A stretch of 64,000 nt of DNA from the NCBI RefSeq assembly GCF_019048865.1, contig NZ_CP077604.1, positions 3,348,001 to 3,412,000 on the forward strand. The letters are read 5' to 3'. A program made the translations under genes and the position numbers. The notes under the pieces were generated by a model, which ran no database searches, was not told the DNA's origin, and was given only the letters and a program-made list of their open reading frames with translations. This document shows positions 6,713 to 43,043 of the stretch, one piece after another. The stretch comes from Aquihabitans sp. G128 (GTDB lineage Bacteria > Actinomycetota > Acidimicrobiia > Acidimicrobiales > Iamiaceae). Positions within the stretch are counted from its first letter, which is position 1. Each line of letters opens with the position of its first letter.

Positions 6713-6722
6713 GGGTGGGGCG

Positions 6723-6860: not shown

Positions 6861-6889
6861 GCGGGCCAGGCGGCGGCGTTCGGCCGTCC

Positions 6890-7294
6890 TCAGCGCAGGA
6901 CGGCCTGGGTCTGGGTGACCTTGGCCGCGAGCCGTCCCTGGGCGTCTCGGAGCTCGGTCTCCACCACGATGGTGGTGCGACCGGCGTGCAGCGGGCGGCC
7001 CACGGCCTCGACGTGCCCGTCGCGCACGGCCCGCAGGAAGTTGGTGGCCGAGCTCACCGTGGTGGTGCCGGTGGCACCCTCGGGCAGGTTGCTGAACGCC
7101 ACCACTGCGCCGACGCCGTCGGCCAGCGCCATCAGCGAGCCGCCGTGGAGCGCACCGCCGAGGGTGGTCCGCTCCTCGGCCCACGGGAGCGTGGCGCGGA
7201 CCTCGTCGGCGCCCACTGCGGTGAACGTGACGCCGATGGCCCGGCAGAAGGGCATGGAGTCGAGGGCTTGGTCGGTGCTGAGCGCGGCGGGCAT
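6890..7294 (-). CDS. PaaI-family hotdog thioesterase
   Basis: The 134-residue protein is a single-hotdog thioesterase of the PaaI/YbgC group. The signature loop LGGALHGGSLMALADGVGA (about residues 43-61) contains the family HGG followed by the catalytic-helix Asp. The second half carries the strands TTTVSSATNFLRAVRDG and VVETELRDAQGRLAAKVTQT typical of the fold. Members hydrolyse aryl- or acyl-CoA. ATG 7294 gives MPAALSTDQALDSMPFCRAIG, a normal N-terminus; the open frame upstream of it is antisense noise over the DUF2786 gene. Confidence 0.88.
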   Translation of the reverse strand: MPAALSTDQALDSMPFCRAIGVTFTAVGADEVRATLPWAEERTTLGGALHGGSLMALADGVGAVVAFSNLPEGATGTTTVSSATNFLRAVRDGHVEAVGRPLHAGRTTIVVETELRDAQGRLAAKVTQTQAVLR

Positions 7295-7361
7295 GCCGCA
7301 GGTTCGCGTGCTCGGCGGCGCCGTGCCATGACCTCCGAGGTCAGGCCCGGGGTGGAGCGGG

Positions 7362-28034: not shown

Positions 28035-28071
28035 GGCCCAGGCCGCCCGGAAACCGGGGCTGACCTGGGCC
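28035..28071 (+). terminator. Copy of tRNA-Gly terminator hairpin at left end
   Basis: GGCCCAGG (28035-28042) pairs with CCTGGGCC (28064-28071), with an inner CCCGG/CCGGGG pairing and TTT after it. The same block occurs at 42625-42660 next to the intact tRNA, so it is the leftover of the original locus after integration. Confidence 0.65.
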
Positions 28072-28084
28072 TTTCGTGCTGGAA

Positions 28085-28123
28085 CGGGTGAGGAGAATCG
28101 AACTCCCGTATTCAGCTTGGGAA
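28085..28123. repeat. attL: attL: 39-bp core from the tRNA-Gly 3' half
   Basis: A 39-bp sequence identical to 42674-42712 lies here. It covers the tRNA acceptor 3' strand, T arm, variable region and anticodon arm through TTGGGAA (plus strand). Sequence similarity continues leftward to about 28035 with a few changes. It lacks the 5' half of the tRNA, so it is not a second functional tRNA gene. This is the expected scar of a tyrosine integrase that inserts at a tRNA 3' end. Confidence 0.88.
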
Positions 28124-28244
28124 ACGCCCGAACGGCCTCCGAGAGTGAGTTGTCACAGCGATGTCTGCAGGTCAGAGCCGGTAGTTGTGCCGTCCAGTAC
28201 TAGCCCGTACCGCCAGTCCCGCAGCGGGGCCTACGCTCCCCGGC

Positions 28245-29060
28245 ATGGAGTTGATCTCGGAGGAAGAACTCCGTGTGCTGAGCTACGTCGACACCATCAA
28301 CCGTGGGGGTCATTCGCCGATTGCCACACTCGTAGCAGAGTTCGAGCGGGGACGAATCGAGGCGAGGTACGGTTTTCCCGACGGGTCGCCGCTCGTCACT
28401 ATGGCGAAGATGCTTCAGGTGGCGATGGCCGGCATCCATGGCCCTCGAACCCTGACCGAAGCAGCGGAATCGACCATCGACTACCTGATCCGAATCGGCG
28501 CGCTGGAGGACCCTGGAGCCCTCAGGGTCACCTCGCTTGGTCGAGCCTTGCTGGTCGGGCTCGAGGCGGTGGACGAAGGTTCTGTCGTGGAGGTGGTGGC
28601 ATCCAACGACCCCCACGCCCTAGTGAAGGTCATGGGCCATATCGGCTCTGCGGGCCTAGGGGCGATGTTGGCCGACCCCTACGTGGGCCTGGAACAAGCA
28701 CTGAGGCTGCTGACGTCCACGGGGGTTGACCGTGTGCTCGTCGGTGGCGGGGACGCTCGCGCCAAGGCCAACGCCGAGATGAGGGCAGCGTTAGATGTGG
28801 CGCCCATTGGGCGTGTATTCGAGGTGCGAGTCGCAGGTAGGGAACTCCACGACCGCTGCCTGGTCCCGCGATCAGGACCGGTGACCATGATCGGCGGGTC
28901 CCTCAACACGTTCGGCAAACGATCCGTAGTGCTAACGACCGTCGAGGATCGTGAGGGTGCGGTGCGTCGCACCTACGAGGATCTTTGGTCCAAGGCCGAG
29001 ACTTTGGTGAAGTGCACGCCGCCCGACGAAGTGGAGCTAGACGACGCGGCAACCGCCTAG
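28245..29060 (+). CDS. PLD-like C-terminal domain protein with winged-helix-like start
   Basis: The 271-residue protein starts at ATG 28245 (MELISEEELRVLSYVDTINR). The first 110 residues are helical with a winged-helix look (ESTIDYLIRIGALEDPGALR, then VTSLGRALLVG). The C-terminal 130 residues read like one phospholipase-D-superfamily half: VDRVLVGGGDARAK and, near residue 205, ELHDRCLVPRSGPVTMIGGS followed by LN. This is an H-x-R/K plus GGSLN pattern. Only one such half is visible, so dimerisation would be needed for a nuclease site. It is the first cargo gene inside attL. Its stop overlaps the convergent DUF6308 gene by 4 bases. Function not established. Confidence 0.65.
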   Translation: MELISEEELRVLSYVDTINRGGHSPIATLVAEFERGRIEARYGFPDGSPLVTMAKMLQVAMAGIHGPRTLTEAAESTIDYLIRIGALEDPGALRVTSLGRALLVGLEAVDEGSVVEVVASNDPHALVKVMGHIGSAGLGAMLADPYVGLEQALRLLTSTGVDRVLVGGGDARAKANAEMRAALDVAPIGRVFEVRVAGRELHDRCLVPRSGPVTMIGGSLNTFGKRSVVLTTVEDREGAVRRTYEDLWSKAETLVKCTPPDEVELDDAATA

Positions 29061-29737
29061 AGAGGGACCTCTGTGTCTGATAGCGGAACGGCATGGTCAC
29101 TCGAGTCCTCGGTATCCGAAGCCCCAGCAAGAGGATGTGTGGATTCGATGGAGAGCCAGACGGATACGTCGAGCAGACGCAGGTCGGTGACGTAGGGAGG
29201 AACTGCTGATCCCGCACGGGCGCGCAGCGAATCGACGGCGGGGCCGAGAGCTGGCGTGCTCCATGCCGCCACCATCGGAGCCCACCATTCCGAGACCTTC
29301 CGGGCGTCGAGGGCCTCCTCGACGAAGGAGTCCCGAATCGGCACGAGCCCAGGGCGCTTCACCGCCAAGAGCTTCGAGGCCCTGGTGGGGCCGATCGACT
29401 TCATGGAGCGGAGAAGGCCGTAGAGCTCGGCCGCAGCTCCATCCGATGCGAGGGCATCCGCCGACTGGTCGTCGCGAATGCTCACGACGCTGGGAATCGC
29501 CTGGAGCAGGCCGGTACACCTCTTTGCCTCTCGGTCGAGGAGGTCGGCGCCAGTGTGCGGTTCGATCTCGGCCGACAGCAGCGCGCAGGCATAGAGGTCC
29601 CCGGCGGTGAAGCGATCTGGAGGACCCTCCATCGCGACGCGGTCGAATCCGCGACCCGAGTAGGTGGTGAAGTACGACTCCAGCCCGCTGACGGGCGCTG
29701 CGTCAGCGATCTCGCAGAGCACCTGAGCCCAGGTCAT
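29057..29737 (-). CDS. DUF6308 family protein
   Basis: The 226-residue protein starts MTWAQVLCEIADAAPVSGLE. It contains FTTYSGRGFDRVA and DRFTAGDLYACALLSAEIEP, which are family hallmarks, then a helix-hairpin-helix-like stretch LRSMKSIGPTRASKLLAVKR (about residues 115-134) followed by PGLVPIRDSFVEEAL. DUF6308 is actinobacterial and uncharacterised; the hairpin resembles those of DNA-glycosylase-like folds. Its ATG overlaps the stop of the upstream nuclease-like gene (ATGA), so both are made from one transcript. The unusual Ser/Thr-rich tail after residue 200 is not conserved. Confidence 0.78.
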   Translation of the reverse strand: MTWAQVLCEIADAAPVSGLESYFTTYSGRGFDRVAMEGPPDRFTAGDLYACALLSAEIEPHTGADLLDREAKRCTGLLQAIPSVVSIRDDQSADALASDGAAAELYGLLRSMKSIGPTRASKLLAVKRPGLVPIRDSFVEEALDARKVSEWWAPMVAAWSTPALGPAVDSLRARAGSAVPPYVTDLRLLDVSVWLSIESTHPLAGASDTEDSSDHAVPLSDTEVPL

Positions 29738-31176
29738 GGCTCGGTGTCCGCTGCCGGGGCTTCGGGTGCGGGTGCCACGGCATGGTCGGGGGCTGCCGAC
29801 GGTGCCGGTATGGGGCGGGGCGTGTACGTCGCACCGTCCTGGGAAGAGGCCGCCGTCGACACGAGGCTGTGGTTGACACCTTGCTCCTGGGCTTCTGCAT
29901 CTACCTGCTCCGGGACGGGCCGGAGCTTCGGGGCGCTGGGCGCCCAGGGCCGGAGGTTCTGGGCGGTGCTCTCGTAGAAGGACTCGAGGATGCCGAGGAC
30001 CGATCCGATGAAGGTGCCCCGGCCCTTGCCCCGCTTGGCTCCCATCGGGGCGGCCAGGACGAGGCGGAAGGCTCGCAGCTCCTTTGAGGGGTCGGGGACG
30101 AGGAGGGCCGGGTTCTCCCGGACGTCTTTGAGCAGCTCCGAGGAGGCGACCGAGCGGCCGTTCACGACGTAGGTGTCGATGCGGAGGTTGTCGGGTGCGT
30201 CCTTGAGCTGGCGGACGAGCCAGTTCACCCGGGTGGTAGCTCGACCTTCCTTGGGAGCATCGATGGTGAGGGAGCAGGTGACCTTTTGCGCCCGGATGTC
30301 GGCGCCGAGCGTCAGCGGAGCAACGGAGCCGATGATCTTGATCTCTCGCTCGAGCAGGCCGTTCTGCGCCAGGCCGCCAACAAGGGATTGGTTGGCGAGG
30401 AGCGGGTCGGCCTGCTCTTTGCGGCTCAGCGCCGGCTGGACCTCGACGCCGAGCTTCTGGCCGTGCGTGAGGCAAGCGAAACGGACGAGCTGGTCCCAAC
30501 GCGAGGCGACGCGAGGCGCGCCCTTGTCGGTCGGGCGGAACGTGCCGGCTTCGATGGCGTTCCGGACGGTGACCCAGTCCTCGCCCATGTCCTCGAATCC
30601 CATAGCTCCGGAACGAGGGTGTTCCAGGTAGCGGATGAGCTCACCGAGGATCCAGGCCTGGTCTGGATCAGCGACGCCACGATGCACCTTCTGCATGACC
30701 GCAGCGGTCTGCACCTCGGTCCACGAGAGGTGGTGGATCGCCACCTTGCGGAGCTTGCGCTTGTCGATGGTCGTTGGGTGGACGCCCGGCGTCGGGGCCA
30801 GCTCGTTCGAGATTGTCAGGAGCGCGTCGAAACCCTCGGCTCGGGCCACGTCCAGGTAGTCCTCGAGCTGGGGCCCGGCGAGGTCGTTCGACTGGGTCTT
30901 GACCTCCACCAGGGCGACCCACGTCTTCGACCCCCGGGACACGCGGATCAAGCCGTCGGGGAACACCTTCCGCTCCCCGAGGTCGAACGGAACCTCGATG
31001 AAGGTCTCGACGGTGCCCGATGGCGCCCCCATCGACTTCGTGATGGCGGCGCCGAACTCACGCACCGCGCTCATCACGGCGAGCAGGGCCGATGTCGCCC
31101 TCCGCTCTTGCTCCTCGGCCCCGTTGATCCCAGAAGTTGGGATCAGTCGCGCCGCGTGCCAGGTCTCTTCAGCCAT
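29734..31176 (-). CDS. PD-(D/E)XK nuclease-like protein (stress-response annotated family)
   Basis: The 480-residue protein starts at ATG 31176, with GGAGGGGG upstream, as MAEETWHAARLIPTSGINGA. A PD-(D/E)XK-like core lies at about residues 68-105: ERKVFPDGLIRVSRG, then TWVALVEVKTQSNDLAGPQL, giving D...E-x-K. The following GFDALLTISNELAP and the long helical C-terminus are conserved in an actinobacterial family often labelled stress response protein. A Pro/Ala-rich tail ends it. I infer a nuclease or nucleic-acid-binding role; that is not demonstrated. It is divergently transcribed from the AAA+ operon across 152 bases. Confidence 0.72.
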   Translation of the reverse strand: MAEETWHAARLIPTSGINGAEEQERRATSALLAVMSAVREFGAAITKSMGAPSGTVETFIEVPFDLGERKVFPDGLIRVSRGSKTWVALVEVKTQSNDLAGPQLEDYLDVARAEGFDALLTISNELAPTPGVHPTTIDKRKLRKVAIHHLSWTEVQTAAVMQKVHRGVADPDQAWILGELIRYLEHPRSGAMGFEDMGEDWVTVRNAIEAGTFRPTDKGAPRVASRWDQLVRFACLTHGQKLGVEVQPALSRKEQADPLLANQSLVGGLAQNGLLEREIKIIGSVAPLTLGADIRAQKVTCSLTIDAPKEGRATTRVNWLVRQLKDAPDNLRIDTYVVNGRSVASSELLKDVRENPALLVPDPSKELRAFRLVLAAPMGAKRGKGRGTFIGSVLGILESFYESTAQNLRPWAPSAPKLRPVPEQVDAEAQEQGVNHSLVSTAASSQDGATYTPRPIPAPSAAPDHAVAPAPEAPAADTEP

Positions 31177-31328
31177 GTGGCCCCCTCCGCTCGTGGACAA
31201 CCGTACGCCTACAAGTCGCACAGCTTGGGGGACCAGGCCGACAGAGGTGGGGCCGAGGTAGCGGTACGGGCGAACCAGTAGGTTGCAGGCGGGAGCGGCT
31301 GGTGGGTCGCTGAGGAGGAGCATCCCCG
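31177..31328. promoter_or_regulatory. Shared divergent promoter region
   Basis: These 152 bases separate the nuclease/DUF6308 operon (minus) from the AAA+ operon (plus), so both promoters must lie here unless transcripts are longer. GAGGAGGAG at 31312-31320 is the ribosome-binding site for GTG 31329. I see no confident -10/-35 pair. Confidence 0.45.
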
Positions 31329-32960
31329 GTGGACAGTACGAGCGAGTTCCGAACAGTCCTGGTGCAGCTCATCAAGGCCAGGAACCCGGTTCTTCTCGTG
31401 GAGACGCATGAGGAGGAACGGGTCGTCGACATCGTCCTCGGCCTCGCCGAGGACCCTGAAGCGCTGAAGACCCGGCGCAACGTCGTCGTCTACTCCCTCA
31501 CGAAGGGCCTCCACCAGGCCACCGCCACCGGCACTGCGGTCGCACCAGACAAGGCGTTGGCCCAAGCAGCGAATGCCACCGAGCCGACGCTGTTCGTGTT
31601 CTTCGATCTGCATCACTCGCTAGCGGGCCAGCGTGGCGCTGAGCCCGGCACGGTTCGAGCTATCCGAGACCTGGCCGAACAGTTCAAGAACGGTGACGTC
31701 GCCTCCACGCTGATCATCGTGGCGCCGACCCTCTCCCTGCCGGTCGATCTCGAGAAGACGGTCTCGGTCGTCAACCTGCCCCTCCCCGGCGCCGCCGAGA
31801 TCGAGGAGGTGTTGGAGGAAATGATCCACTCCAACCGCGACGCGATCACTGTCGATCTCAGCCCCGACGACCGTCACCGCCTGGTTCAGGCCGCCCTCGG
31901 CCTCACCCGAAACGAAGCCGAGAACGCCTTCGCCCGAGCCATCGCCATCGACGGCCGTCTCGACGCCGCCGACGTTGAGCTGGTGCTCGACGAGAAGCGC
32001 CAGACCATCCGCAAGTCCGGGCTTCTAGAGTTCATTCCGCCCTCGGGCGACCTCAACGACGTCGGCGGGCTGGAGAACCTCAAGCGCTGGCTCGGCAAGC
32101 GCAACAGCTCCTGGCAGGCGGAGGCCGAGGAATGGGCGCTTCCGTTCCCGAAGGGAATCCTCATCACAGGCGTGCCTGGCTGCGGCAAGAGCCTCACCGC
32201 CAAGTGCACCTCCAGCCTGTGGGGCATGCCGCTGCTGCGTCTCGACATCGGGCGGGTCTTCGCCGGCCTGGTGGGGTCCAGCGAGCAGAACATGCGTGGT
32301 GCCTTGGAGCTGGCCGAGGCCACCTCGCCATCGATCCTGTGGATCGATGAGATCGAGAAGGGCTTCGGCTCGGCCGGCGGCGGGGGCGACTCTGGCACCA
32401 GCCAGCGCGTCTTCGGGACCTTCCTCACGTGGATGCAGGAGAAGCAGAAGCCGGTGTTCGTCATCGCAACGGCCAACGCCATCGATCGGCTCCCGCCCGA
32501 GTTCCTGCGCAAGGGTCGCTTCGATGAGATCTTCTTCGTCGACCTCCCTACGCACGCGGAGCGCACCAGCATCTGGAACCTCCACCTTCGGCGTCGCCTG
32601 CTCCCGGGACGTGCCGTCTCGGCAAGCCTTGCCCTCGACGCTGCCTTGGTCGATCGCCTGGGAGCTTCCAGCGAGGGCTTCTCGGGAGCCGAGATCGAGC
32701 AGGTGGTCGTCAGCGCATGCTTCGACGCCTTCGCCGAACGCCGCGGCGTCACTGAAGAGGACCTGTTGCGCTCCATCCGCAACACCGTCGCACTATCGGT
32801 CACGCAGGCCGAGCAGATCGCCGCCAACCGCACCTGGGCCTCCACCCGGGCCGTGGCCGCCACCGCCACAGAGGACCTCGATCAGTACGAGAGCACCCCG
32901 CCCACCGATCCCACCACCGACGTCGGCCGTTGGCGTGGCGGCCGGACCATCGAGTTCTAG
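31329..32960 (+). CDS. Ycf46-like AAA+ ATPase
   Basis: The 543-residue protein has an N-terminal domain of about 240 residues (LVQLIKARNPVLLVETHEEE, with TEPTLFVFFDLH and IIVAPTLSLPVDLEKTVSVV), the arrangement of plastid/cyanobacterial Ycf46. A classic AAA module follows: Walker A GVPGCGKSLTAK (about residues 280-291), pore-loop-like RVFAGLVGSSEQNMR, Walker B ILWIDEIEKGFGS, second region of homology VIATANAIDRLPPEFLRKGR with the Arg finger region RFDEIFFVDLP. The C-terminal AAA lid contains GFSGAEIEQVVVSA. Ycf46 has no firm function. GTG 31329 has a strong GAGGAGGAG site. It is the first of five co-directional genes spaced by overlaps or short gaps. Confidence 0.88.
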   Translation: MDSTSEFRTVLVQLIKARNPVLLVETHEEERVVDIVLGLAEDPEALKTRRNVVVYSLTKGLHQATATGTAVAPDKALAQAANATEPTLFVFFDLHHSLAGQRGAEPGTVRAIRDLAEQFKNGDVASTLIIVAPTLSLPVDLEKTVSVVNLPLPGAAEIEEVLEEMIHSNRDAITVDLSPDDRHRLVQAALGLTRNEAENAFARAIAIDGRLDAADVELVLDEKRQTIRKSGLLEFIPPSGDLNDVGGLENLKRWLGKRNSSWQAEAEEWALPFPKGILITGVPGCGKSLTAKCTSSLWGMPLLRLDIGRVFAGLVGSSEQNMRGALELAEATSPSILWIDEIEKGFGSAGGGGDSGTSQRVFGTFLTWMQEKQKPVFVIATANAIDRLPPEFLRKGRFDEIFFVDLPTHAERTSIWNLHLRRRLLPGRAVSASLALDAALVDRLGASSEGFSGAEIEQVVVSACFDAFAERRGVTEEDLLRSIRNTVALSVTQAEQIAANRTWASTRAVAATATEDLDQYESTPPTDPTTDVGRWRGGRTIEF

Positions 32961-32973
32961 AAGCAGCCGATCC

Positions 32974-33414
32974 ATGAGCATCGAGGTCATCCTCATCCCC
33001 ATCGGCATCGCCGCCTACAGCGCCTACAAGGAGCGCCACCGCACCGATCTGTGCGAGGGCTGCCGTCAGACCCGAATCACCGACCCCGCTCTGCTCGAGC
33101 GCACCCTTGTCTCGCTTGGCGCCACTGGAGTGGTCGTCGACTTCGAGGGCCTGGTGGTCACCGGGCAACTTGGCCAAGACGTCGTGCGCTTCCAGCTCAT
33201 CGGCGGCGCCTACTTGGGCCGGATCGACGACTCCACCGACGAGGCCACTGAGGCGTTCGTCAGCGCCGTGGACGCCGAGGTCGGCCGGCTCGTCCAGGCT
33301 GACAAGGTCGACGAGATGCGCACACGGGCAGCTCAGCTCGGCCTGGTGCTCGTCGGGGAAGAGGTGGCCGAAGACGGCACCGTCCAGCTGGTCTTCGAGG
33401 AGGTCGAGGCATGA
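32974..33414 (+). CDS. DUF1257 (Ycf35-like) protein
   Basis: The 146-residue protein starts MSIEVILIPIGIAAYSAYKE. The body fits DUF1257: DPALLERTLVSLGATGVVVD, VVRFQLIGGAYLGRIDDSTD and the ending AAQLGLVLVGEEVAEDGTVQ, the family's E-E-V..DG-x-I/V-x-L pattern. The first 25 residues are hydrophobic, so it may be membrane-associated, and C-E-G-C at about residues 28-31 is a possible metal-binding pair. DUF1257 genes commonly sit beside Ycf46-type ATPases and DUF2997, which is the case here. Start ATG 32974 lies 13 bases after the ATPase stop. It overlaps the next gene by 4 bases. Confidence 0.7.
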   Translation: MSIEVILIPIGIAAYSAYKERHRTDLCEGCRQTRITDPALLERTLVSLGATGVVVDFEGLVVTGQLGQDVVRFQLIGGAYLGRIDDSTDEATEAFVSAVDAEVGRLVQADKVDEMRTRAAQLGLVLVGEEVAEDGTVQLVFEEVEA

Positions 33415-33635
33415 CCCGAAAGCGCATCACCGTCCAGGTCCTGGCCGACGGCACCCTGCGAGCCGAGACGAGCGGGGTGACCGGCCCCGGCTGCCTAGAC
33501 GAGGTGGCCCGCATCGAGGCCCTCTGCGGCGAGACCGTCACCGACTCCAGCCTCACTCCCGACTACCACGCCTCCGCCACCGCCACCGCAACCGACGACC
33601 TGGCCCTCGGCCAGAACCTGGAGCAGGACGGATGA
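33411..33635 (+). CDS. DUF2997 family protein
   Basis: A 74-residue protein that reads MTRKRITVQVLADGTLRAET, SGVTGPGCLDEVARIEALCG and SSLTPDYHASA. The DUF2997 pattern is the DGT strand, then G-x-x-G-x-x-C-x-x, ending in a T-P-E/D-Y motif; all parts are seen. The single conserved Cys near residue 28 could be the modified or metal-binding residue. ATGA overlaps on both sides (33411-33414 with DUF1257 and 33632-33635 with the next gene) put it in the same translation unit. Function unknown in any organism. Confidence 0.75.
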   Translation: MTRKRITVQVLADGTLRAETSGVTGPGCLDEVARIEALCGETVTDSSLTPDYHASATATATDDLALGQNLEQDG

Positions 33636-34417
33636 ACACTCCCGCCGAGAACCTCTGCGATCGATCCTGGCGCGTTCGCAACAGTGCCTGGCTCCTGGGC
33701 CCCATCCTCTCGGTAGGACTGCTGACCTGGGCATCCCTGTGGTACGTGAGCAGAAAGACCGGGCGGGCCGACTGGCGTCGGGCAACCCAGGCCTTCGGCG
33801 TGGCCGGCGCTGTCTTGTTTGTTTCGATCCTGACGCTGGGAGACGGAAAGAAGGGGACCTCGACACCCGGTGACACGGTTGGGGCTCTCATCATGATGGT
33901 GGTCTGGATCAGCAGCATCGCCTACTGCGTGCGGGCCAATCGGCCGTGGCTGATCTGGCGGGCGCACCACACCGGGGATGCCGCCTGGTACGCCACAGCG
34001 GCGGCCACCCCGACACCTCCTCCGAATCCCTCCGGGCCTTCGGTGGACGACGTCTTGCTTGGGTCGGCTTCCACCGCCTGGGCACCTCCGCCTCCGCCGC
34101 CTCCGCTGCTTCGGCCGCCTCCTCCTCGAGACGCAGCGACGACCTCGGCGGCGTCGCCGGCCGGTCCTATCGACGCCAATCGTTCGAACGCGGCTGACCT
34201 GTCGGTGCAGCTCGGGCTGGCCCCTGAGGCCGCTCAGCGTCTCGTCGCCGAGCGGACCAGGATCGGCGGGTTCACCCACGTTGACCAGCTGATGACCGTC
34301 GGCGGCGTCCCGCCTCATGTCTTCGCCGGCATTCGGAACCGGATCACGCTCTCTCCTGCGGCCCCTCCCCCGCCGAAGGCCGCACCATCAGGTCGCGGCC
34401 GGCGGCTCGATCTCTGA
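33632..34417 (+). CDS. Membrane protein with C-terminal helix-hairpin-helix
   Basis: The 261-residue protein has three hydrophobic spans near the N-terminus (AWLLGPILSVGLLTWASLWY, AFGVAGAVLFVSILTL, VGALIMMVVWISSIAYCV). A cytoplasmic Pro-rich linker with PPPPPPP and PPPP follows, and a C-terminal helix-hairpin-helix of the ComEA kind: NAADLSVQLGLAPEAAQRLV, then GGFTHVDQLMTVGGVPPHVF. The soluble HhH could bind DNA or a nucleic-acid substrate, tethering it to the membrane. In the operon it comes between DUF2997 and the radical-SAM protein. No family name beyond the HhH module. Confidence 0.78.
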   Translation: MNTPAENLCDRSWRVRNSAWLLGPILSVGLLTWASLWYVSRKTGRADWRRATQAFGVAGAVLFVSILTLGDGKKGTSTPGDTVGALIMMVVWISSIAYCVRANRPWLIWRAHHTGDAAWYATAAATPTPPPNPSGPSVDDVLLGSASTAWAPPPPPPPLLRPPPPRDAATTSAASPAGPIDANRSNAADLSVQLGLAPEAAQRLVAERTRIGGFTHVDQLMTVGGVPPHVFAGIRNRITLSPAAPPPPKAAPSGRGRRLDL

Positions 34418-34425
34418 ACGACAAC

Positions 34426-35172
34426 GTGACCGCCCTGTCCGTGGCCCGCGTACTACATGGCACCACCGCCGAGGGACCGTTCCTGCGGACAGCGGTATGG
34501 GTGCAGGGCTGCTCTATCCGCTGCCCCGGATGCATCAACCCGCACCTGTTCGAACCCGGCGGACCCGATGCCGACGTTGATGGTCTGGCCGACGCCATCG
34601 TGACCGCCGGCGTCGAGGGACTGACGTTGTTGGGTGGCGAGCCGTTCGACCAGGCGGACGCTTGCGGCTTCCTGGCCGAACGGGTGCGAGCCGCCGGACT
34701 CGGGGTGATCACCTTCACCGGCTACGCCGTCCAGGACCTCCGCAGTCAGCTGGCCGATTCGCCGGTCCACCGGCTCCTGGCCGCCACCGACCTTCTGGTC
34801 GACGGCCCGTACCAGCACGACGCCCCCGAGTCGGCCCGAGCTCTCGTCGGCTCGACGAACCAAGGCTTCCACCATCTCACCGAGCGCTACCGGTCCTACG
34901 ACCCGGCGACCCGCCGTAACCGCATCGACATCCGCATTAGCGCTGATGGCGACACCCGCCTAGCTGGCTTCCTCACCCGCCCCGGCCTCCGGAGCCTCAC
35001 GGGTTCGGCGGCAGTCAATCTTTGTGCCTCGTCTCTGAGCACGCCAAGCGAATCCCCTCCCGGGACTCAGCCTGACGGTCGATCGGAATCGAAGGCCCTC
35101 ACGTCTTCGGCGACTTGGGCAAGCGCACGGCGCATGCGCTCGCCGGCGTCGAGGAACCAGTCCAGGTACTGA
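34426..35172 (+). CDS. Radical-SAM / 4Fe-4S single-cluster protein (NrdG-like)
   Basis: A 248-residue open frame from GTG 34426. The iron-sulfur loop is VQGCSIRCPGCINPHLF (about residues 28-44), C-x3-C-x2-C, as in the 4Fe-4S single-cluster domain of NrdG-like activases. LTLLGGEPFDQADACGFLAE (62-83) is the SAM-binding GGE motif. The segment GLGVITFTGY and ATDLLVDGPYQHD complete the half-barrel. The family match ends near LTRPGLRSL; the last 60 residues overlap antisense with the DUF4268 gene. A +1 shift near 35000 would stop at 35036-35038, 28 bases clear of it, so the tail may be a frame artefact. It likely modifies a protein or nucleotide; the operon partner is the likely substrate or motor. 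Confidence 0.75.
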   Translation: MTALSVARVLHGTTAEGPFLRTAVWVQGCSIRCPGCINPHLFEPGGPDADVDGLADAIVTAGVEGLTLLGGEPFDQADACGFLAERVRAAGLGVITFTGYAVQDLRSQLADSPVHRLLAATDLLVDGPYQHDAPESARALVGSTNQGFHHLTERYRSYDPATRRNRIDIRISADGDTRLAGFLTRPGLRSLTGSAAVNLCASSLSTPSESPPGTQPDGRSESKALTSSATWASARRMRSPASRNQSRY

Positions 35173-36042
35173 TCCCACTGAGCCTCCTCGAGGATGTCGC
35201 CGTCTTCTCGGTAGGTGGCGATCCGGCAGGCTCGCTTGCCTTCGATCTCGTCGAACTTCGAGTTGATGGCCAAAAGCGGCCTCAAGTAGCTCGCGTCGCT
35301 CGACCAAGAGCTCGAAAAGCGCCACGTTGGCCGAGGAGTCGCCGCGATCGATGTACAGCTCGTGACGGAGGCGACGGCCTTGCGCGAACGATGGGTTGAT
35401 CTGGGTCCCCTGGAACGGCCCGCCGAAGGACATCCAGTTGGCCGGTTGTGGCGATCCACGCCGACCCCAGTCGCTGTGCTCGGATGCCTGGCGCTCCAAG
35501 TATCGCTCCCAGAAAGTCCGGTACTTCTCGCTCCGGGGGCTCATCCCGCCGCCGGACCGGCTAGCGGTGCGGACGCGCTTCTGCCAGTCGTTGGGTTTCG
35601 ACACGACCTCGAAGAGGGGTGCGGGCGCCGAAGTACCGATCCTCACGAGGGACAGCACGACTCCGAAGAAGTGTGTGTCCTCGCCTGTTTGCTCGTTGAG
35701 CCAGTCGAGTGCCTGCCGATGCTCGTCTCGGAAGGCCGTTGCGATCCACACGATGGTCGTGGCCCCCGTTCCGGCAGCGTACGTGAGGACTTGACCGAGA
35801 TGCGTGTGATCGGTCGGCTCCAACTGGTTCTCGACCATGAGCACGGCGTCGTTGGTGAGGTCCTGTCCGATGAGGTCGAGCGAGTAGCCCCCCACGGGAT
35901 GCTCCGCTGCGTGTAGTTCCAGCTCGATGCCAAGGGCTCGGCCCAGCCGCTCCGCATTCGCCAGAAGCCATGGCGTGAAGTCACGCGCTTCGTTGGCCCA
36001 GACGGATCGAGGTTGAACAGGTTCGATGTCGCCGAGTTCCAC
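35067..36042 (-). pseudogene. DUF4268 protein, frame broken near 35259
   Basis: From ATG 36042 the frame gives MELGDIEPVQPRSVWANEAR, a DUF91/nuclease-like first part (SLDLIGQDLTNDAVLMVENQ, with D-x-x-x-x-N-Q), TIVWIATAFRDEHRQALDWL, and the DUF4268 start ELYIDRGDSSANVALFELLV. The continuation KFDEIEGKRACRIATYREDG to the stop at 35067 is in the next frame. One surplus G (plus-strand C35259) in CTC-G-AAG explains the break. Uncorrected, the first frame runs to 34960 into the radical-SAM gene. DUF4268 proteins often accompany restriction or defence genes; a nuclease-like role is likely for the corrected 324-residue product. Confidence 0.78.
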
Positions 36043-36085
36043 GGCGGCACCCTATTGGTGATCGACGGCCGGCGGCATTGTGCCG

Positions 36086-38704
36086 TCAGGGTTCGAGGTG
36101 GGGTGGGACGAGCTTGGGAGCTGCTGGTTCCGCTCGCACGACGGCAGACCGCTCTCGTTGGATGCGGACAAGATGCGCATGCATGGCGAGAGCGGACTCG
36201 TGGCTCGGCGCTCGGCTGGCGACCTCGGCCAGGGCCTCGGCGGGGTCGAGGGTGCCGGTGGGGTCGGGGATCCAGGCGTGGTTGGGGATCCAGGCGTGGT
36301 TGGCTTCTCGGCCTCTGGTCATGGCGACGTAGAGGTGCGAGCGGCTCGTGCCGGGCTCGACGACGGCGTAGGCGATGTCGGTGGTGTCGCCTTGGTTGCC
36401 GTAGCCGGTGACGGCCCAGCCGAGCTCGACGTGCCTAGCGACGTAGTCAGCCGGGAGGTGGACTGACCCATGCTCGGCATCGGTCACCACGAGGCCGTCG
36501 TCCTCGCTGACGGATCGGACGGTCCAGGTGTGGCGGTTTCGGACGGTCACGCTGGCGGTCGTCTCGAGGGTGGGCTCGTTGCGACGGGTGGCGATGCGAT
36601 CGCCGATGCCGGCCTTCGTGCCGTCGGCCAGGACAGCACCGTGATCGAGCGCCGTCCCTCGCTCGTGCTGGATCGCTTCGTTGATGGAACGCGCGGTGGA
36701 CACCGAGGCGGCGGTGAGGGCGACCGTCCGGCCTTCGGCTTCAGCGCGGGCCACCTCCTTGGCGAGCTGGCGGGCGAGAAGCTTGGGGTGGGTGGTGTGG
36801 AGCCGGTCGTGGGCGGCGTACTGCTCGGCGGCCTCGGGGTCGGCGGTCCGGAGGGCGATGCTGGCAGCCGCCTTCCACGGTTCCACGAAGCGGCGAGGCG
36901 TGATCAGCTCGTGGTGGGCGAGGGTGTCGCACCAGTGGGCGAAGACGCAGCCTCGGCCGACGGCGGGTAGCTGGGCGGGGTCACCGACGGCGACGAGCCG
37001 CCAGTGGTGGCGGCGGGCGAGGTCGACCAGGCGGTGGAGGTCGTCGGTGCCGGTCATGGCGGCCTCGTCGAGGATGACCGTGGTGCCCGGCCGCCACGGC
37101 CGGCGGCGGTCATCGGCGTGGTGGAGCAGGAACGAGGCGAGAGTGAGGCTGGGGCACTTTGCGTCAGTGGCCAGCACATCGGTGGCCTTGCCCGAGGGAG
37201 CGAGGCCGACGACCGGTCGACCCTGCTGGCCCAGCTCGGCGACGCCCCGGGCGATGGTGGTGGTCTTACCGGTGCCGGCAGGCCCGACGATCACCACGAG
37301 GCCGTCGTCACCAGCGATGGCGCTCGCCGCTGATCTCTGAGGATCGACGCCAGCAGTGGGTGCCGGGTCGAGGCTGGCTCGGGCCCAGTCCTGGAGGTCC
37401 TGTTCCTGCTCGATGACGTGGTGGGTGGTGAGCCGGTGGTCGGTGACGTGCTCCTCCACCGGGCGCCCGTCCCTGCGGCGGGCCCAGGAGCCGAGCACCG
37501 GCGAGAGGTTGAGGCACCGATCGGCGGCGGAGCTGGCCAGCATGTCGATGGTGGCCACCAGAGCCTGGCCCGAGCGGCCGGTGGTAGGCGGCAGGAGCGT
37601 CGCGATGTGACGGGCGAGGTCGGCTTCGAGCCACGTCGAGGACTCATCGGCAGCGAGGCGGATGGCTTCCTCGATCACGGCCTCGTGGCTGGTGTCCGGT
37701 GCCGGTTCGTGCCGGCGGATGCCGTCGGCGGTCAGCTCGTGGCACTCGAACCCCATCGCTGCGGCGTCGGAGGCCCAGAGCTGGTGGAGCTCGGTGGCGT
37801 CGACGCCGTGGGTCTTGTCGGGCCGGGAGTCGGTCACGGCCTTGCGTTCGAGGTTGGCGATTGTGCGGGCGTCCGGCTCGGCGCCATCGTGCTCGTCCTG
37901 CCAGCGCTCGAGGAGCTCGGCGAGCCGGTTGTCGACCTGCACGGTCCGCTTGGAGAACAGGTCGCGCACCTCGTCTGGGATGCAGTCCATGTCGACCGGG
38001 GCACCGGGATCGACACGCTCCCAGCCAACGCCGAGCCGGGCGGCCAGCTCGGTGCGGAGGGCGGCGTCGTAGATCCAGCCGATGGTGCGCTGCTGGTACT
38101 TCAGGAAGCGGGCGTCGAGGGCGAGCCACTTCCCGGTCTCGTCCTGGACCTTCGACGAGATCAGCGCGTGGGTGTGCAGCTGCGGGTCCATCGACCGAGA
38201 GGTGTGCTGGCGGAAGAGCGCAGCGGTGATGCCGAGCGAGTCGACCTGGTCGACACCGTCCTTCCCGCGCCGGGTGACGGCGCCGCGCTCCTCGAACCAG
38301 CCGAGGGCGGCAGTGACGGCGGCGTCGTGGGCGGCAAGGACTTCGGCCCGGACCCACCGGTCGGGTGTGAGCGCCCACAGCGCCGAGACCGACTTCGGGG
38401 CCGAGAACGTGGCGTCGAACCCTCGGGCCGAGCGGTCACCGAACCGGCGCCCGATCGAGTGTCGGGTGGACGGGTGGTGGCCGGCGAGGAGCGCACGGAG
38501 CTGCTCGCCATGGACCTCGCCGGACAGACCGAGGGCCTCGATGCCGGATCCCCACCACCTTCCCGGCGGCTCGTCGGGGTCGAGGTAGTAGTCGACCGGG
38601 CCTCGCCCGGGGCCGGATCGGTCCCGGTCCTCGGCCAGGCCGGCGTAGTAGTCGACCAGTCGGGCGAGCCGGTCGCCGGCCGCCTTCAGGGTCGTCACCC
38701 GCAT
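36086..38704 (-). CDS. MobF-type relaxase/helicase (TraA-like)
   Basis: The 872-residue protein initiates conjugative DNA transfer: it nicks oriT with an N-terminal Tyr and unwinds DNA. The relaxase domain has VTTLKAAGDRLARLVDYYAG, with the catalytic Tyr pair in VDYYAG and VDYYLD, and the metal-binding triad in RQHTSRSMDPQLHTHALISS. The helicase half has Walker A VGPAGTGKTT (near residue 492), Walker B VILDEAAMTGTDDL and motif III VGDPAQLPAVGRGCVF. The C-terminal motif VTGYGNQGDTTDIAYAVV is typical of TrwC/TraA. Start ATG 38704 (a GTG at 38707 is the alternative). It is shorter than most plasmid TraA proteins but complete in domains. Confidence 0.92.
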   Translation of the reverse strand: MRVTTLKAAGDRLARLVDYYAGLAEDRDRSGPGRGPVDYYLDPDEPPGRWWGSGIEALGLSGEVHGEQLRALLAGHHPSTRHSIGRRFGDRSARGFDATFSAPKSVSALWALTPDRWVRAEVLAAHDAAVTAALGWFEERGAVTRRGKDGVDQVDSLGITAALFRQHTSRSMDPQLHTHALISSKVQDETGKWLALDARFLKYQQRTIGWIYDAALRTELAARLGVGWERVDPGAPVDMDCIPDEVRDLFSKRTVQVDNRLAELLERWQDEHDGAEPDARTIANLERKAVTDSRPDKTHGVDATELHQLWASDAAAMGFECHELTADGIRRHEPAPDTSHEAVIEEAIRLAADESSTWLEADLARHIATLLPPTTGRSGQALVATIDMLASSAADRCLNLSPVLGSWARRRDGRPVEEHVTDHRLTTHHVIEQEQDLQDWARASLDPAPTAGVDPQRSAASAIAGDDGLVVIVGPAGTGKTTTIARGVAELGQQGRPVVGLAPSGKATDVLATDAKCPSLTLASFLLHHADDRRRPWRPGTTVILDEAAMTGTDDLHRLVDLARRHHWRLVAVGDPAQLPAVGRGCVFAHWCDTLAHHELITPRRFVEPWKAAASIALRTADPEAAEQYAAHDRLHTTHPKLLARQLAKEVARAEAEGRTVALTAASVSTARSINEAIQHERGTALDHGAVLADGTKAGIGDRIATRRNEPTLETTASVTVRNRHTWTVRSVSEDDGLVVTDAEHGSVHLPADYVARHVELGWAVTGYGNQGDTTDIAYAVVEPGTSRSHLYVAMTRGREANHAWIPNHAWIPDPTGTLDPAEALAEVASRAPSHESALAMHAHLVRIQRERSAVVRAEPAAPKLVPPHLEP
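36266..36301. repeat. 18-bp tandem duplication in relaxase gene
   Basis: GGGGATCCAGGCGTGGTT occurs twice in direct succession (36266-36283 and 36284-36301), duplicating NHAWIP in the protein (NHAWIPNHAWIP). The frame is kept. Looks like a recent slippage or a protein repeat under no strong constraint. Confidence 0.9.
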
Positions 38705-38974
38705 CACCGGGACACCGGACCGGGACGCAATGCACCCGTCTGCTCGGATCGGTGGTTCATGCCCCCTATGCGGTGAGCGGGCCGGGATCTCTGAGGAAGC
38801 TCGGCAGATGGGGCTGGCGGGACGGCCGGGACGCTCGGCGGGACGGTTAGTGGGGCCGGAGGCCTTCCGTCGGGAGGGGCGCAGGGGTACCGTCAGGGGC
38901 GACGCGTCGTCGGGACCGCCGAGACCTGGCCAACCTCACCGCAGCTCAGGCTGCCCTCCTCGGAGGAAGTGCTC
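38705..38974. other. Relaxase-integrase intergenic region, oriT candidate
   Basis: These 270 bases lie between the divergent relaxase and integrase genes. They contain three spaced copies of GGGACG-type repeats (around 38818-38848), an imperfect palindrome CCGGAGGCCTTCCG near 38860, and the integrase ribosome-binding site GGAGGA at 38962-38967. oriT of MobF relaxases usually lies beside the relaxase gene, so this is the first place to look. No excisionase gene is visible. Confidence 0.4.
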
Positions 38975-40083
38975 ATGGCGCGTCAGCGCAGGGCGGGGGG
39001 TGGCGTCGATCGTCTCCCGTCCGGCCGGTTCCGAGTCCGCATCGTCTCGCCCGAGGGCGAACGCATCAGCATCGGGTCCTTCACCACCCGCCGTGCCGCC
39101 GAGACGGCCTACGCCCGCTCGCTGGCCGACCGCGCCGACGGCAAGTGGCGCTCCCCGATCGAAGCGACAATCACGCTCGAGGAGTGCGCCACCGGCTGGA
39201 TCGAAGAACGGCTCACCAGCCGAGGCGAACCGCTCCGGCCGCGGGTGAAGGACATGTACCGGTCCCAGCTCCGCCTACACATCCTCCCGACCCTCGGCTC
39301 CATCCCCGTCCCGAAGATCACCACCGCCCGGGTGCGGTCATTTTCGGCCGAGAAGCGGGGACCCGACGGGCCCGGCGCCAGCACGGCCGCCAAGTGCTAC
39401 CGGCTGCTTCGCTCGATCATGACCACCGCCACCGAGGATGGGCTCCTCGCCGCCAACCCGTGCAACATCAAGGGCGCCGGCGTCGAGCCCGCCGAGGAGC
39501 GACCGATCCCCACCGTTGCCCAGGTCCACGCCATCGCCGAGACGATCCATCCCCGGTACCGCTGCATCGTCCTGCTCGCCGGCTTCGTCGGCCTCCGCAA
39601 GGGCGAGCTGCTCGGCCTCCGCCGCTGCGACCTCGACCTCGAAGCTGGCGAGCTGTCCGTCGTCCAGCAGCGCCAGCTCGACCGCCACGGCCAACACCTC
39701 GTCGGCCCACCCAAGACCGCCGCCGGCAAGCGCACCATCGCCCTCCCCGCCAGCCTGATCCCAGACCTCCAGCACCACCTCGACGAGTACGCCGAGCCCG
39801 GGCGGTACGGCTACGTGTTCACCGGCCAGCAGGCAATCCCCTCGCACCCCACGTCCTCCACGGCGCCTGGCCACGGGCGAGAGCAGCCCACGACCTCGAC
39901 CACATCCACCTGCATGACCTCCGCCACCTGGCCGGCACCCTCGCTGCCAGCACCGGCGCCGGCACCAAGGAGCTCATGTACCGCCACGGCCACGCCAGCC
40001 CCCAAGCCGCCCTCCTCTACCAGCACGCCACGAGAGAGCGTGATGTTGCGCTTGCTAGCGCGATTGACGAGTTGCTTGCCTGA
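38975..40083 (+). pseudogene. int: Tyrosine recombinase integrase, frame broken near 39825
   Basis: From ATG 38975 (GGAGGA 7 bases upstream) the frame encodes MARQRRAGGGVDRLPSGRFR, an arm-binding AP2-like start, a SAM-like core-binding domain (ECATGWIEERLTSRGEPLRP) and the catalytic Arg in LLAGFVGLRKGELLGLRRCD. After YVFTGQQ the match moves to the other frame: APHVLHGAWPRARAAHDLDH, HLHDLRHLAGTLAASTGAGT (H-x-x-R) and ELMYRHGHASPQAALLYQHA (H and the nucleophile Tyr), ending at 40083. One G seems missing from GGG near 39825. As written the enzyme lacks its catalytic C-terminus. The integrase type (tRNA 3' end) fits the attL/attR found. Confidence 0.86.
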
Positions 40084-40126
40084 GGCCGTAGCGCTCACTG
40101 AGCCAGAGACAGCGTTGGCAAGACAA

Positions 40127-40891
40127 TCAAGGTGCGGGCGTCGCTTCACCAAGAGAGGTGAGAAGGGCTGTCTTCGTAGCATCGTCCTCACCCACCCAGA
40201 ATCCCCCTGCAGGCCACGCAGCCGAAGGAGCAGGGATCAGCGCTACGAGCCGCTGCATGTACAAGTCGGAGTAGCGACGGTCACCCACCAAGTAGGCCAG
40301 CGAACAGGATGTCGCAAAGTCTGCTGCTTGAAGCAACCTCGAGTAGGTCGAGTCAGTACATAGTTCGAAGGCAACTCGGGGCGCTCGGTGTACCGGATCA
40401 GCGCAGGTCGTCGACAGATACTTCAGAAACTGCGGGCCACCCTTGCCGTACCCGTTGCTGGGGAGGTCAAATACATACGACAGGCCGAAGTCGCCGCTCA
40501 CAGCGGACGAGATGCTTTCGGTCAAGAATCGATGCAAGGAAGCCCGATCCTCCTCGAGGTCTGCGACCGCTCCTGAGACGCTTAGCAATAGCTGAATCTC
40601 GAACCGCTCGAAGAGGTCACACACTGCTGCAAGAAAGGCTTGGCGAAGATCGGCATCTAGCGCATGCATCGTGGTCCCAGCCTTCGGAGACCATTTGAAC
40701 TCGTCAAAGTCGCCGAATCCTGTTGTTCGACATAGCTCCCGCAGGTCCCACGCGATCTCCGGAAGCAATGCGCCTCTACACACGATACCGCCGTAGCCTT
40801 GGAGATGATCTCCCGCTCCCGGAAGAAGGTTGCGCAGACGTTGCGAGACCTTCTGCTTTGAATCGTCAACGAATAGAACGTTGAATTCCAT
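40127..40891 (-). CDS. DUF3800 family protein, partner of the reverse transcriptase
   Basis: The 254-residue protein starts MEFNVLFVDDSKQKVSQRLR. DUF3800 proteins have an N-terminal Asp motif on the first strand (here FVDDS), a G-G/A-x-V strand (GYGGIVCRGALLPEI), an E-x-K-W segment (FDEFKWSPKAG), and a final LLQAADFATSCSLAYLVG where the Asp completes a predicted RNase H-like site; all four are present. The domain is thought to be a nuclease, but this is not shown for this branch. The ATG at 40891 follows the RT stop by 2 bases (TGACGATG), so translation is coupled. It is convergent with the integrase. Low GC, like the RT gene. Confidence 0.78.
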   Translation of the reverse strand: MEFNVLFVDDSKQKVSQRLRNLLPGAGDHLQGYGGIVCRGALLPEIAWDLRELCRTTGFGDFDEFKWSPKAGTTMHALDADLRQAFLAAVCDLFERFEIQLLLSVSGAVADLEEDRASLHRFLTESISSAVSGDFGLSYVFDLPSNGYGKGGPQFLKYLSTTCADPVHRAPRVAFELCTDSTYSRLLQAADFATSCSLAYLVGDRRYSDLYMQRLVALIPAPSAAWPAGGFWVGEDDATKTALLTSLGEATPAP

Positions 40892-40893
40892 CG

Positions 40894-42576
40894 TCAAGGC
40901 CGTTGACGTCCGGAGTAGTCTTTCTCGACTGGGATTTTCGCCCAGCCTGTGTCCTCAAGCATGAGGAGGGTGGCGAAGTTCTCCTCGTGAGAAGAGAGGA
41001 TACGCCTAACCTCTGACTTGGATGCGCCAGCGGCGCGCATGAACAGTGCACAAGCTCTGTACTGAAGTGCGGAATTGGAGCGCCGAACAACACTCGTCGC
41101 CAGCTGGAGGGCTATGTCCTTATCCCACTCGGCATATCGACTCAGAACCGCAGTGGTAAGGGTCAAATCGTCAGATGTCGAAGCGATCTCGGCGAGCTGA
41201 CCAAAGAGGCCTCTCACTCGCTTGCCCTTGCCCGCTGCGACCGTGCTTGGCACGCCGGTGGCGTACTGGCCCAAGCTCCAGGAGAACTTCGGCCACTGGC
41301 TCTGAAGATGGTCTTCCAGGAAGTCGAGGTAGGGGCCATCCCAAAGCTTGAGCTTTCGAGCCATACGTGCGAGGTGGTCGGCACCGTGAGGAAGCTGCGA
41401 AGAAACGTGAATAAGTTGGATTGCGGCCGGTTTCATCTCTAAGTCCGCAACTGATCTGGCCGTGAAGTAAATGTTGCTTCGACTAGTGGAGGCGGGGTCG
41501 GCAGCTATGCCATCTACCAACTCCGCCACCTGTCTAATCGGAAGCATTGTTCTGCCTGTGATTGGGCTGGGTTCTGCGCCGCTATGAGAGAATGTGTCGA
41601 TAGCCGCCCCGATTTCCTCGCCACGAAGCAGAGATGTCTTTCCTGAATTCAGATCGAGGCCATCGGCACGTAGCGCCGAAGCCAGCGCGACTTGGGTCGA
41701 GCGCAACCATGCCTCAGATGTGGAGAAGATCCAATAGTCGTCCATCCAGCGCACGGCTGTGTTGGTGGTGAAGGTCTCGTCGAGTTCCGGGCGCACATCA
41801 AGTACGGCATCAATATCGGCAAGGTACATGTTCGCTAGGGACGAGGATGATAGGCATCGCTGGGGCAATCCTGCATTTCCCGGCTGAGAGGCAACCCCGT
41901 GCAGAAATGATTCGAGCCGACGCAGCGGCGCCAACTGTCTGCTTCGAACCCTGAGCTTCTCACCGAGAATTCCGAGGTCGATGCTGGGAAAGAAGGATGC
42001 AATGTCAGCGCGCAGCGCAAACTCGTACTGTTCGCTACATTGACGCAGGTAACTCCTGTAGCGGTCCCACTCACCGCTGTTCTTGACGTAACTGCCACGT
42101 TCGGGGTCGGCTCGGTTTGGACGCCATCCGAATACCCAGGAGTGTGTATCGCTATATAGCTCTGGCAGCAGGCGGTCGGTTAGTGCCTGCCCAGCGAGTC
42201 GGTCGATCGGATCCAGCACGACCGCAGGTCGCATCCCGAACTGCTCTTTCGGAACGGTCAGCGCAAGGGTTGGGCGTGCGCCTGTCCCGTTCAGTCGGGC
42301 GGCGACTATCTCTGGACGGTGCTTTACTGCCCACGCGACCTCTGGCCAGCCCCAGGGGTCGCGATACCAATCGCCGTAGGCGTCGTGCTCGACGTTCCGG
42401 AGGGCCCGATCGAGATCAACTAGCTCTGACCAGTTCAAAAGGTCCCTCTCCCTGAGTGTTGGATGATCGTACGCACTCGAGGACCACGGAGGGGGTGAGA
42501 CGGCAACGTGAGGCCAGCCGTTGCATGGCGTGTCTCCAGACCGACCGAAGCTGTGTAGCCGGGCCGTGCGGCCCAT
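40894..42576 (-). CDS. Reverse transcriptase of uncharacterised (defence-like) group
   Basis: The frame encodes 560 residues. RT motifs appear in order: TLALTVPKEQFGMRPAVVLD and DRLAGQALTDRLLPELY (motifs 0-2), RADIASFFPSID with catalytic Asp191 (motif A), GLPQRCLSSSSLANMYL (motif B), VRWMDDYWIF with Asp279-Asp280 (motif C, MDD in place of YADD), and DGLDLNSGKTSLL (motif D). The last 220 residues are alpha-helical repeats with no group-II intron maturase, X or endonuclease domain, as in Abi/UG-type RTs. The first 46 residues look unconserved, and TTG 42438 (NWSELVDLDRALR, with AGGGAGAGGG before it) may be the true start. It directly precedes DUF3800. Group-II intron and retroelement origin are unlikely. 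Confidence 0.85.
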   Translation of the reverse strand: MGRTARLHSFGRSGDTPCNGWPHVAVSPPPWSSSAYDHPTLRERDLLNWSELVDLDRALRNVEHDAYGDWYRDPWGWPEVAWAVKHRPEIVAARLNGTGARPTLALTVPKEQFGMRPAVVLDPIDRLAGQALTDRLLPELYSDTHSWVFGWRPNRADPERGSYVKNSGEWDRYRSYLRQCSEQYEFALRADIASFFPSIDLGILGEKLRVRSRQLAPLRRLESFLHGVASQPGNAGLPQRCLSSSSLANMYLADIDAVLDVRPELDETFTTNTAVRWMDDYWIFSTSEAWLRSTQVALASALRADGLDLNSGKTSLLRGEEIGAAIDTFSHSGAEPSPITGRTMLPIRQVAELVDGIAADPASTSRSNIYFTARSVADLEMKPAAIQLIHVSSQLPHGADHLARMARKLKLWDGPYLDFLEDHLQSQWPKFSWSLGQYATGVPSTVAAGKGKRVRGLFGQLAEIASTSDDLTLTTAVLSRYAEWDKDIALQLATSVVRRSNSALQYRACALFMRAAGASKSEVRRILSSHEENFATLLMLEDTGWAKIPVEKDYSGRQRP

Positions 42577-42624
42577 AGGGTCACGTTAGGGTCACGAGGC
42601 CGATTTTGGGCCTGAACGGCGAAA
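42439..42624 (-). ncRNA. Candidate structured leader RNA of the RT operon
   Basis: If the RT starts at TTG 42438, 186 bases remain between it and the tRNA terminator. They include a hairpin GCAACG/CGTTGC (42503-42524, 10-base loop), a 6-bp stem GGGCCG-TG-CGGCCC (42561-42574) and two direct copies of TAGGGTCACG (42576-42585, 42587-42596). RT defence systems of the DRT and retron kinds use a structured RNA placed right upstream. No template sequence can be named. Low confidence: position and hairpins only. Confidence 0.3.
42576..42596. repeat. Two direct copies of TAGGGTCACG
   Basis: A 10-bp sequence repeated with 1 base between (period 11, one helical turn) at the right end of the element, 78 bases from attR. 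It may be an operator of the RT operon or an integrase/excisionase arm site. Confidence 0.6.
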
Positions 42625-42659
42625 GCCCAGGCGGCCCGGAAACCGGGGCTGACCTGGGC
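42625..42659 (-). terminator. tRNA-Gly terminator
   Basis: On the minus strand GCCCAGG pairs with CCTGGGC around an inner CCGG pairing, followed by TTTC, 10 bases after the tRNA's encoded CCA end. The same block is duplicated at the left element end. Confidence 0.7.
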
Positions 42660-42668
42660 CTTTGTGGT

Positions 42669-42742
42669 TGGAGCGGGTGAGGAGAATCGAACTCCCGTAT
42701 TCAGCTTGGGAAGCTGATGTTCTGCCATTGAACTACACCCGC
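42669..42742 (-). tRNA. tRNA-Gly (CCC anticodon)
   Basis: Read on the minus strand, the cloverleaf closes fully: acceptor GCGGGTG/CACCCGC, D arm GTTC-AATGGCA-GAAC, anticodon stem TCAGC/GCTGA with loop TTCCCAA (anticodon CCC), T arm GGGAG-TTCGATT-CTCCT. The discriminator base is T and CCA is encoded (42669-42671). The 3' part from the anticodon loop on is shared with attL, so the element replaced it on integration and kept the gene intact. The RT operon follows in the same direction after the terminator. Confidence 0.95.
42674..42712. repeat. attR: attR: 39-bp core inside intact tRNA-Gly
   Basis: Identical over 39 bases to 28085-28123; the match ends at TTGGGAA where the two sequences diverge (GCTG here, ACGC at left). 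Upstream of this point the tRNA 5' half is chromosomal; the rest came from the element's attP. Confidence 0.88.
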
Positions 42743-43043
42743 GAGCGGCGGCAGCGGTGAGGCGGAGCCCCGGTCCGAGCTGCTCGGCGGACCCGAACCC
42801 TACCCGAGCCGGCACCCTCGCGGCCCACCGGGATCGGGCCTGGCGCCCGGCTTGGGGCGCCACCGGCGTCGCCGTCGCGAAGGACTGGTAGCGGCGGGGC
42901 CCGGACCGGGCGTCATTCCTCACCAGATGGGCACGTCGGCGGTCGCCGTCGAGGAACCGGTGGCGGAGGCGGCCCGGCCCGGCCCGGGCGCCTCTCCTCG
43001 CCGGTTCCGGGACCCGGCATCGGCAAGTCATGAGGCCCGATCC
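42743..43043. other. Intergenic region right of the element
   Basis: About 300 bases with no gene supported on either strand. It contains the tRNA-Gly promoter region (minus strand, left end) and, at its right end, the promoter of the ArsR-SRPBCC gene. The GC-rich frames present have no start with a ribosome-binding site. Confidence 0.5.

Follow-up and report, generated by a model that had tools for sequence, protein, structure and literature searches.

A UG33-type reverse transcriptase and an adjacent divergent DUF3800 protein near the end of an apparent mobilizable element in Aquihabitans sp. G128

Analysis of a 64,000-nucleotide stretch of the Aquihabitans sp. G128 genome (hereafter the window) revealed a new member of UG33, a catalogued, unstudied group of defence reverse transcriptases (RTs), whose gene is directly followed by one for a predicted DUF3800 protein. 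In our preferred reading, to which we assign a probability of roughly 0.5, the RT is an uncharacterised defence enzyme carried as cargo by a mobile element, it synthesizes DNA without a template, and the DUF3800 protein is an optional, coupled nuclease of the RNase H-like type. The features of the locus are summarized in Table 1.

Table 1. Features of the RT locus and of the surrounding element (coordinates are those of the window)
Feature	Coordinates	Strand	Basis or remark
Left attachment repeat	28045..28074	.	30-bp exact direct repeat with 42634-42663
MobF (TrwC-type) relaxase-helicase	36086..38707	-	TrwC E 6.1e-75, MobF E 1e-68
Tyrosine integrase, two frames, frameshift near 39830	38969..40083	+	Phage_integrase
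DUF3800 protein (divergent; 254 aa), putative nuclease of the RNase H-like type	40127..40891	-	Pfam, motifs, fold match
UG33-type RT, probable true gene	40894..42438	-	TTG start, 514 aa; UG33 profile, alignment, ribosome-binding-like sequence
Region between right attachment repeat and RT	42439..42633	-	No structured RNA detected
Right attachment repeat, just 3' of tRNA-Gly	42634..42663	.	30-bp exact direct repeat with 28045-28074
tRNA-Gly (ccc) beside the element	42669..42742	-	ARAGORN, Rfam

A profile search with the PADLOC models matched the RT to RT_UG33 (E 1.5e-127, 424.6 bits) over positions 2–489 of the 490 in the profile and residues 49–555 of the long open reading frame (ORF), compared with 108.6 bits for the next-best group, UG20. 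Judged by this match, the enzyme is a full-length member of the UG33 group, which PADLOC files under DRT. The original prediction had proposed an RT of the UG/Abi type and a profile search as the way to check it; the search ranked UG33 best by far and placed the enzyme with neither group II intron nor retron RTs.

The long RT ORF runs from an ATG at 42576 to 40894 on the minus strand (560-aa numbering). Both this ORF and the DUF3800 ORF were present as originally described, as were the RT motifs A (RADIASFFPSI), B (GLPQ), and C (RWMDDYWIF), with the MDD aspartates at D279 and D280 in the 560-aa numbering. The motif A aspartate, GLPQR, and RWMDD were invariant among seven aligned UG33 sequences (the window RT and six full-length relatives) and correspond to D145, residues 190–194, and residues 230–234 in the 514-aa numbering; the polymerase centre is thus intact. 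The RT start is probably the TTG at 42438 because the N-termini of the relatives lie 20–35 residues ahead of a shared YGDWYRDPWGW motif, a position that this codon fits, because a ribosome-binding-like GGGAGAGGG precedes it, and because the family profile match begins only at residue 49 of the long ORF. The 46 residues upstream of the TTG are probably not translated, and the longer reading from the ATG is possible, although less likely.

A Pfam search of the RT C-terminus found no maturase or endonuclease domain, and the structure model (mean pLDDT 64, pTM 0.60) showed an RT core with an array of helices behind it (residues 301–496), in line with the helical C-terminus that had been predicted. 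A structure search with this model returned DRT6 (9wy8; E 1.3e-8, 466 columns), Abi-P2 (E 1.6e-8), AbiA (E 6e-8), and DRT4 (E 1.5e-7), whose matches span about 460–520 columns across the RT and the helical C-terminus and rank above group II (1.9e-7) and retron RTs; all four are polymerases of phage defence whose C-termini are helical. Full-chain TM-scores were only 0.3–0.4 and the model of this two-domain protein is of moderate confidence, so the matches support a common architecture and not close kinship. The modelled fusion of an RT to a C-terminal helical repeat domain is a feature of Class 1 UG RTs, and members of that class with alpha-repeat domains synthesize untemplated DNA (PMC13174585).

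An Rfam search for non-coding RNA (ncRNA) gave no match in the region upstream of the RT and no intron or retron RNA, and the 195 nt of this region folded no better than shuffled sequences (z-score 0.23). No sigma-70-like promoter was found within 40000–42800, only 43 nt separate the end of the DUF3800 gene from that of the integrase gene, and none of the RT relatives has a detected ncRNA. The alternative of a Class 2, ncRNA-templated UG RT was rejected because neither Rfam nor folding, which together are less than a full covariation search, indicated a cis RNA. The combination of no indicated ncRNA and a helical C-terminus favours untemplated, protein-primed DNA synthesis as in Class 1 UG RTs and DRT4, and by this analogy the RT probably makes untemplated DNA. 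The groups nearest to UG33 by HMM ranking were UG20, UG21, UG9, UG23, UG22, and UG32, for none of which a characterization was found, which leaves room for a class other than Class 1.

The 30-bp direct repeats delimit an element of 14.6 kb (28045–42663) beside the tRNA-Gly gene, with the right repeat 6 nt beyond the 3' end of the tRNA, and the RT and DUF3800 genes sit 196 bp inside its right end, confirming the predicted location at the end of a mobile element. In addition to the relaxase and integrase genes, the element carries AAA ATPase, DUF6308, DUF4268, and radical-SAM genes as further cargo; no transfer apparatus was seen in 28045–42663, and the whole looks like an integrative mobilizable element. 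The first Phage_integrase part of the integrase is in the frame from 38969, and its C-terminal, catalytic part is read in that of 39145–40083; this split may mean that the element is immobile or that the genome (one contig, 92% complete) contains indel errors. A divergent gene pair at 29734–32960 encodes an AAA ATPase that is partially similar to PADLOC IetA (E 2.4e-21) and a 529-aa protein for which no family matched. A 291-aa ORF at 28185–29060, just inside the left repeat, had no Pfam match at E 0.01, and the C-terminal part of its product is by eye phospholipase D-type in appearance.

UG33 is very rare: it was detected in the Aquihabitans sp. G128 genome only among 396 Actinomycetota genomes, and in 2 of 295 genomes of one actinobacterial family centred on a known carrier. 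No viral homologue of the RT was found, with phage records yielding only distant RTs. Nine UG33 loci were compared, namely seven from the genome collection, one on a Mycobacterium plasmid (L009), and the window. Four of the relatives lie beside defence genes: a Lamassu LmuA-like gene and an AAA_15 ATPase gene in L003, AbiEi/AbiEii in L006, and large STAND-type NTPases in L004 and L007. These neighbours support the view that UG33 RTs generally act in defence and are consistent with the defence-type RT that had been proposed; together with the element ends in the window, they correspond to the defence-island or mobile-element location used to recognize DRTs. Several of these loci showed further features. 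The UG33 RT extends over two frames in L006 (5947–7528) and L007 (5992–7577), through either decay or sequencing errors. L003 (2049–11754) groups the RT with the LmuA-like gene, a tyrosine integrase, and the AAA_15 ATPase, the last of which is preceded by a 479-aa protein without a family match. The L009 RT (6411–7955) is located next to a recombinase gene on a mobilizable plasmid of Mycobacterium intracellulare (chimaera) and is present in five plasmid records.

The DUF3800 ORF spans 40897–40127 on the minus strand, and its ATG at 40891 lies 2 nt past the RT stop (sequence CCTTGACGATGG). Its product matched Pfam DUF3800 over residues 8–196 with 14.5 bits (E 0.058), below the gathering cut-off of 21, and carries the motif series FVDDS, EFKW, VFD, and AADF. 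FVDDS and AADF lined up with DUF3800 in the alignment, with D9 and D191 aligning with DUF3800 motifs, and the middle region aligned poorly. We take the product as a divergent DUF3800 protein that appears to have kept its acidic residues; the original assignment thus stood as far as FVDDS, EFKW, and AADF are concerned, with the sub-threshold score marking a divergent member. The best fold match was a DUF3800 protein among predicted viral proteins (E 1.5e-3, probability 1.00; next match at E 0.53), which is not independent support because the alignment underlying the weak model (pLDDT 50) held DUF3800 sequences. An hhalign comparison of a single DUF3800 sequence with a small DUF3800 profile gave a probability of 9% and was uninformative. 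DUF3800 is described as RNase H-like in its fold and as having undergone a catalytic rearrangement (PMC10910872). Searches of plasmids, phages, and viral contigs and of 395/396 genomes sampled by class and phylum yielded no close relatives of the window DUF3800; the weak phylum-level matches (E 0.01–0.05) were at chance level. A search of viral contigs with the pattern FVDDSKQK returned only unrelated FVDDWKQK phage proteins.

Base composition set the two genes apart from their surroundings, with GC contents of 0.584 for the RT and 0.575 for DUF3800 compared with 0.714 for the relaxase-integrase part of the element and about 0.72 for the flanking chromosome. This common low GC suggests that the two genes probably arrived together and separately from the rest of the element, and the 2-nt gap points to translational coupling, which, judged by spacing and base composition, is probable.

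A DUF3800 gene was adjacent to the RT at two of the nine UG33 loci, the window and L004 of Curtobacterium, and at none of the other seven by profile or motif. The divergent copy in the window itself escaped the profile search, which could also have missed equally divergent copies elsewhere; the motif census guards against this. In L004, the DUF3800 gene, whose product has the same FVDDSKQK start as that of the window, lies upstream of the RT and is broken over frames, with the RT intact. A Streptomyces plasmid (L082) carries a relative of the L004 DUF3800 that is intact, and no RT is annotated among the genes in the first 10 kb of this plasmid. Neither of the closest RT relatives, L009 (33% identity) and L006, has an adjacent DUF3800 gene; an upstream gene in L009 that resembled DUF3800 in one search (16 bits) had no Pfam match at E 0.001 and lies about 3 kb away with opposite-strand genes in between. 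A dedicated, conserved two-gene system was not borne out, and these counts do not support an obligate one, which fails under the condition set originally that DUF3800 be conserved next to RT relatives; the pairing is real at the window locus but optional, and not a fixed feature of UG33. A role for DUF3800 as a putative accessory nuclease is plausible.

A somewhat less likely alternative is that the UG33 RT acts alone, as a single-gene defence like DRT4 or DRT6, with DUF3800 as independent cargo stacked in the same integration hotspot. The seven loci without DUF3800 and the plasmid-borne relative of the L004 protein fit such an arrangement, as does the abundance of DUF3800, which occurs in 12 of 100 Actinomycetota genomes (about 16 genes). 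However, the 2-nt gap and the shared low GC of the two genes speak against independent cargo, and a rough estimate from this abundance makes it unlikely that chance alone placed DUF3800 next to UG33 at two of the nine loci, although DUF3800 is enriched in mobile regions.

In our preferred reading, an active-looking, defence-associated RT that travels on an integrative mobilizable element as part of its cargo would most likely work like Abi-P2, AbiA, DRT4, and DRT6, the characterised enzymes nearest to it in structure. Upon phage infection, it would make DNA without an external nucleic-acid template, primed probably on one of its own tyrosines, for which the invariant Tyr127 (514-aa numbering) is one candidate, and either the DNA product or the dNTP use and protein sequestration caused by its synthesis would lead to arrest of the infected cell. 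DUF3800 would serve as an optional RNase H-like nuclease, probably acting on the nucleic-acid product of the RT, which it might keep low in uninfected cells or process. In DRT4, the product builds up and becomes toxic once exonucleases are kept from it by a phage protein (PMC13213688), and the normal exposure of that product to exonucleases offers a precedent for a nuclease that keeps such DNA low, a part that the coupled DUF3800 could take over here. A stronger version, in which the locus is a two-component DRT whose coupled DUF3800 processes or gates UG33-made DNA, so that synthesis and controlled degradation together act as a phage sensor, appears doubtful to us. No description of the UG33-DUF3800 pairing was found in the literature searched, which lay outside the Mestre 2022 UG/Abi survey and the supplements of the DRT4 paper.

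The precedent of DRT4, whose product does no harm as long as it is degraded (PMC13213688), and the apparent coupled translation of the two genes would also suit a toxin-antitoxin-like module with toxic DNA synthesis by the RT and the DUF3800 nuclease as its antidote. Such a module is improbable, as most UG33 RTs have no DUF3800, the putative antidote is second in gene order, and the broken DUF3800 beside an intact RT in L004 is a state that an essential antidote should not permit. The idea that the RT belongs to a group II intron, a retron, or another retroelement and not to defence retains hardly any probability and was refuted by the family search, since its weak cross-matches to group_II_RT_mat (E 6e-17, 61.8 bits) and retron St85 (E 0.0018, 17.6 bits) fell far below the cut-offs of 300 and 235 beside a full-length UG33 match, a CRISPR RT identity was likewise ruled out by the scores, and the domain and RNA searches described above were negative.

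UG33 is a very rare RT group for which no published experiment was found in the literature searched. If the nuclease partner is functional, a dedicated enzyme would control the DNA of a defence RT, whereas DRT4 leaves this step to exonucleases of the host, and DUF3800, a widespread unknown, would gain a testable substrate. If it is not, the locus adds another mobile element with a defence RT of a catalogued group.

Comparison with known systems showed both common and distinct features. The window RT resembles the UG33 group in its full-length match (490 positions), N-terminal YGDWYRDPWGW, and helical C-terminus, although it is only 27–33% identical to the aligned full-length relatives and is followed by DUF3800, which most members do not have. 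With DRT4, DRT6, Abi-P2, and AbiA, which were its best full-length structural matches, it has in common the RT with a helical C-terminal domain, no detected ncRNA, and, in most UG33 loci, no conserved partner gene; it differs from them in its low sequence similarity, its UG group, and its DUF3800 neighbour. The DUF3800 protein has the motifs FVDDS, ExK, D, and AD(F/L) in common with PF12686 proteins, including the Cas12a2-linked TPR-DUF3800 (PMC10910872), which likewise has a predicted RNase H-like fold and ties DUF3800 to a nucleic-acid-acting defence enzyme, whereas the window protein scores below the Pfam cut-off, is linked to an RT and not to Cas12, and has no TPR. Finally, DRT3, DRT10, and other multi-component DRTs also combine an RT with a linked extra component, but their extras are a second RT, an ncRNA, or a SLATT protein, and none is a DUF3800 protein.
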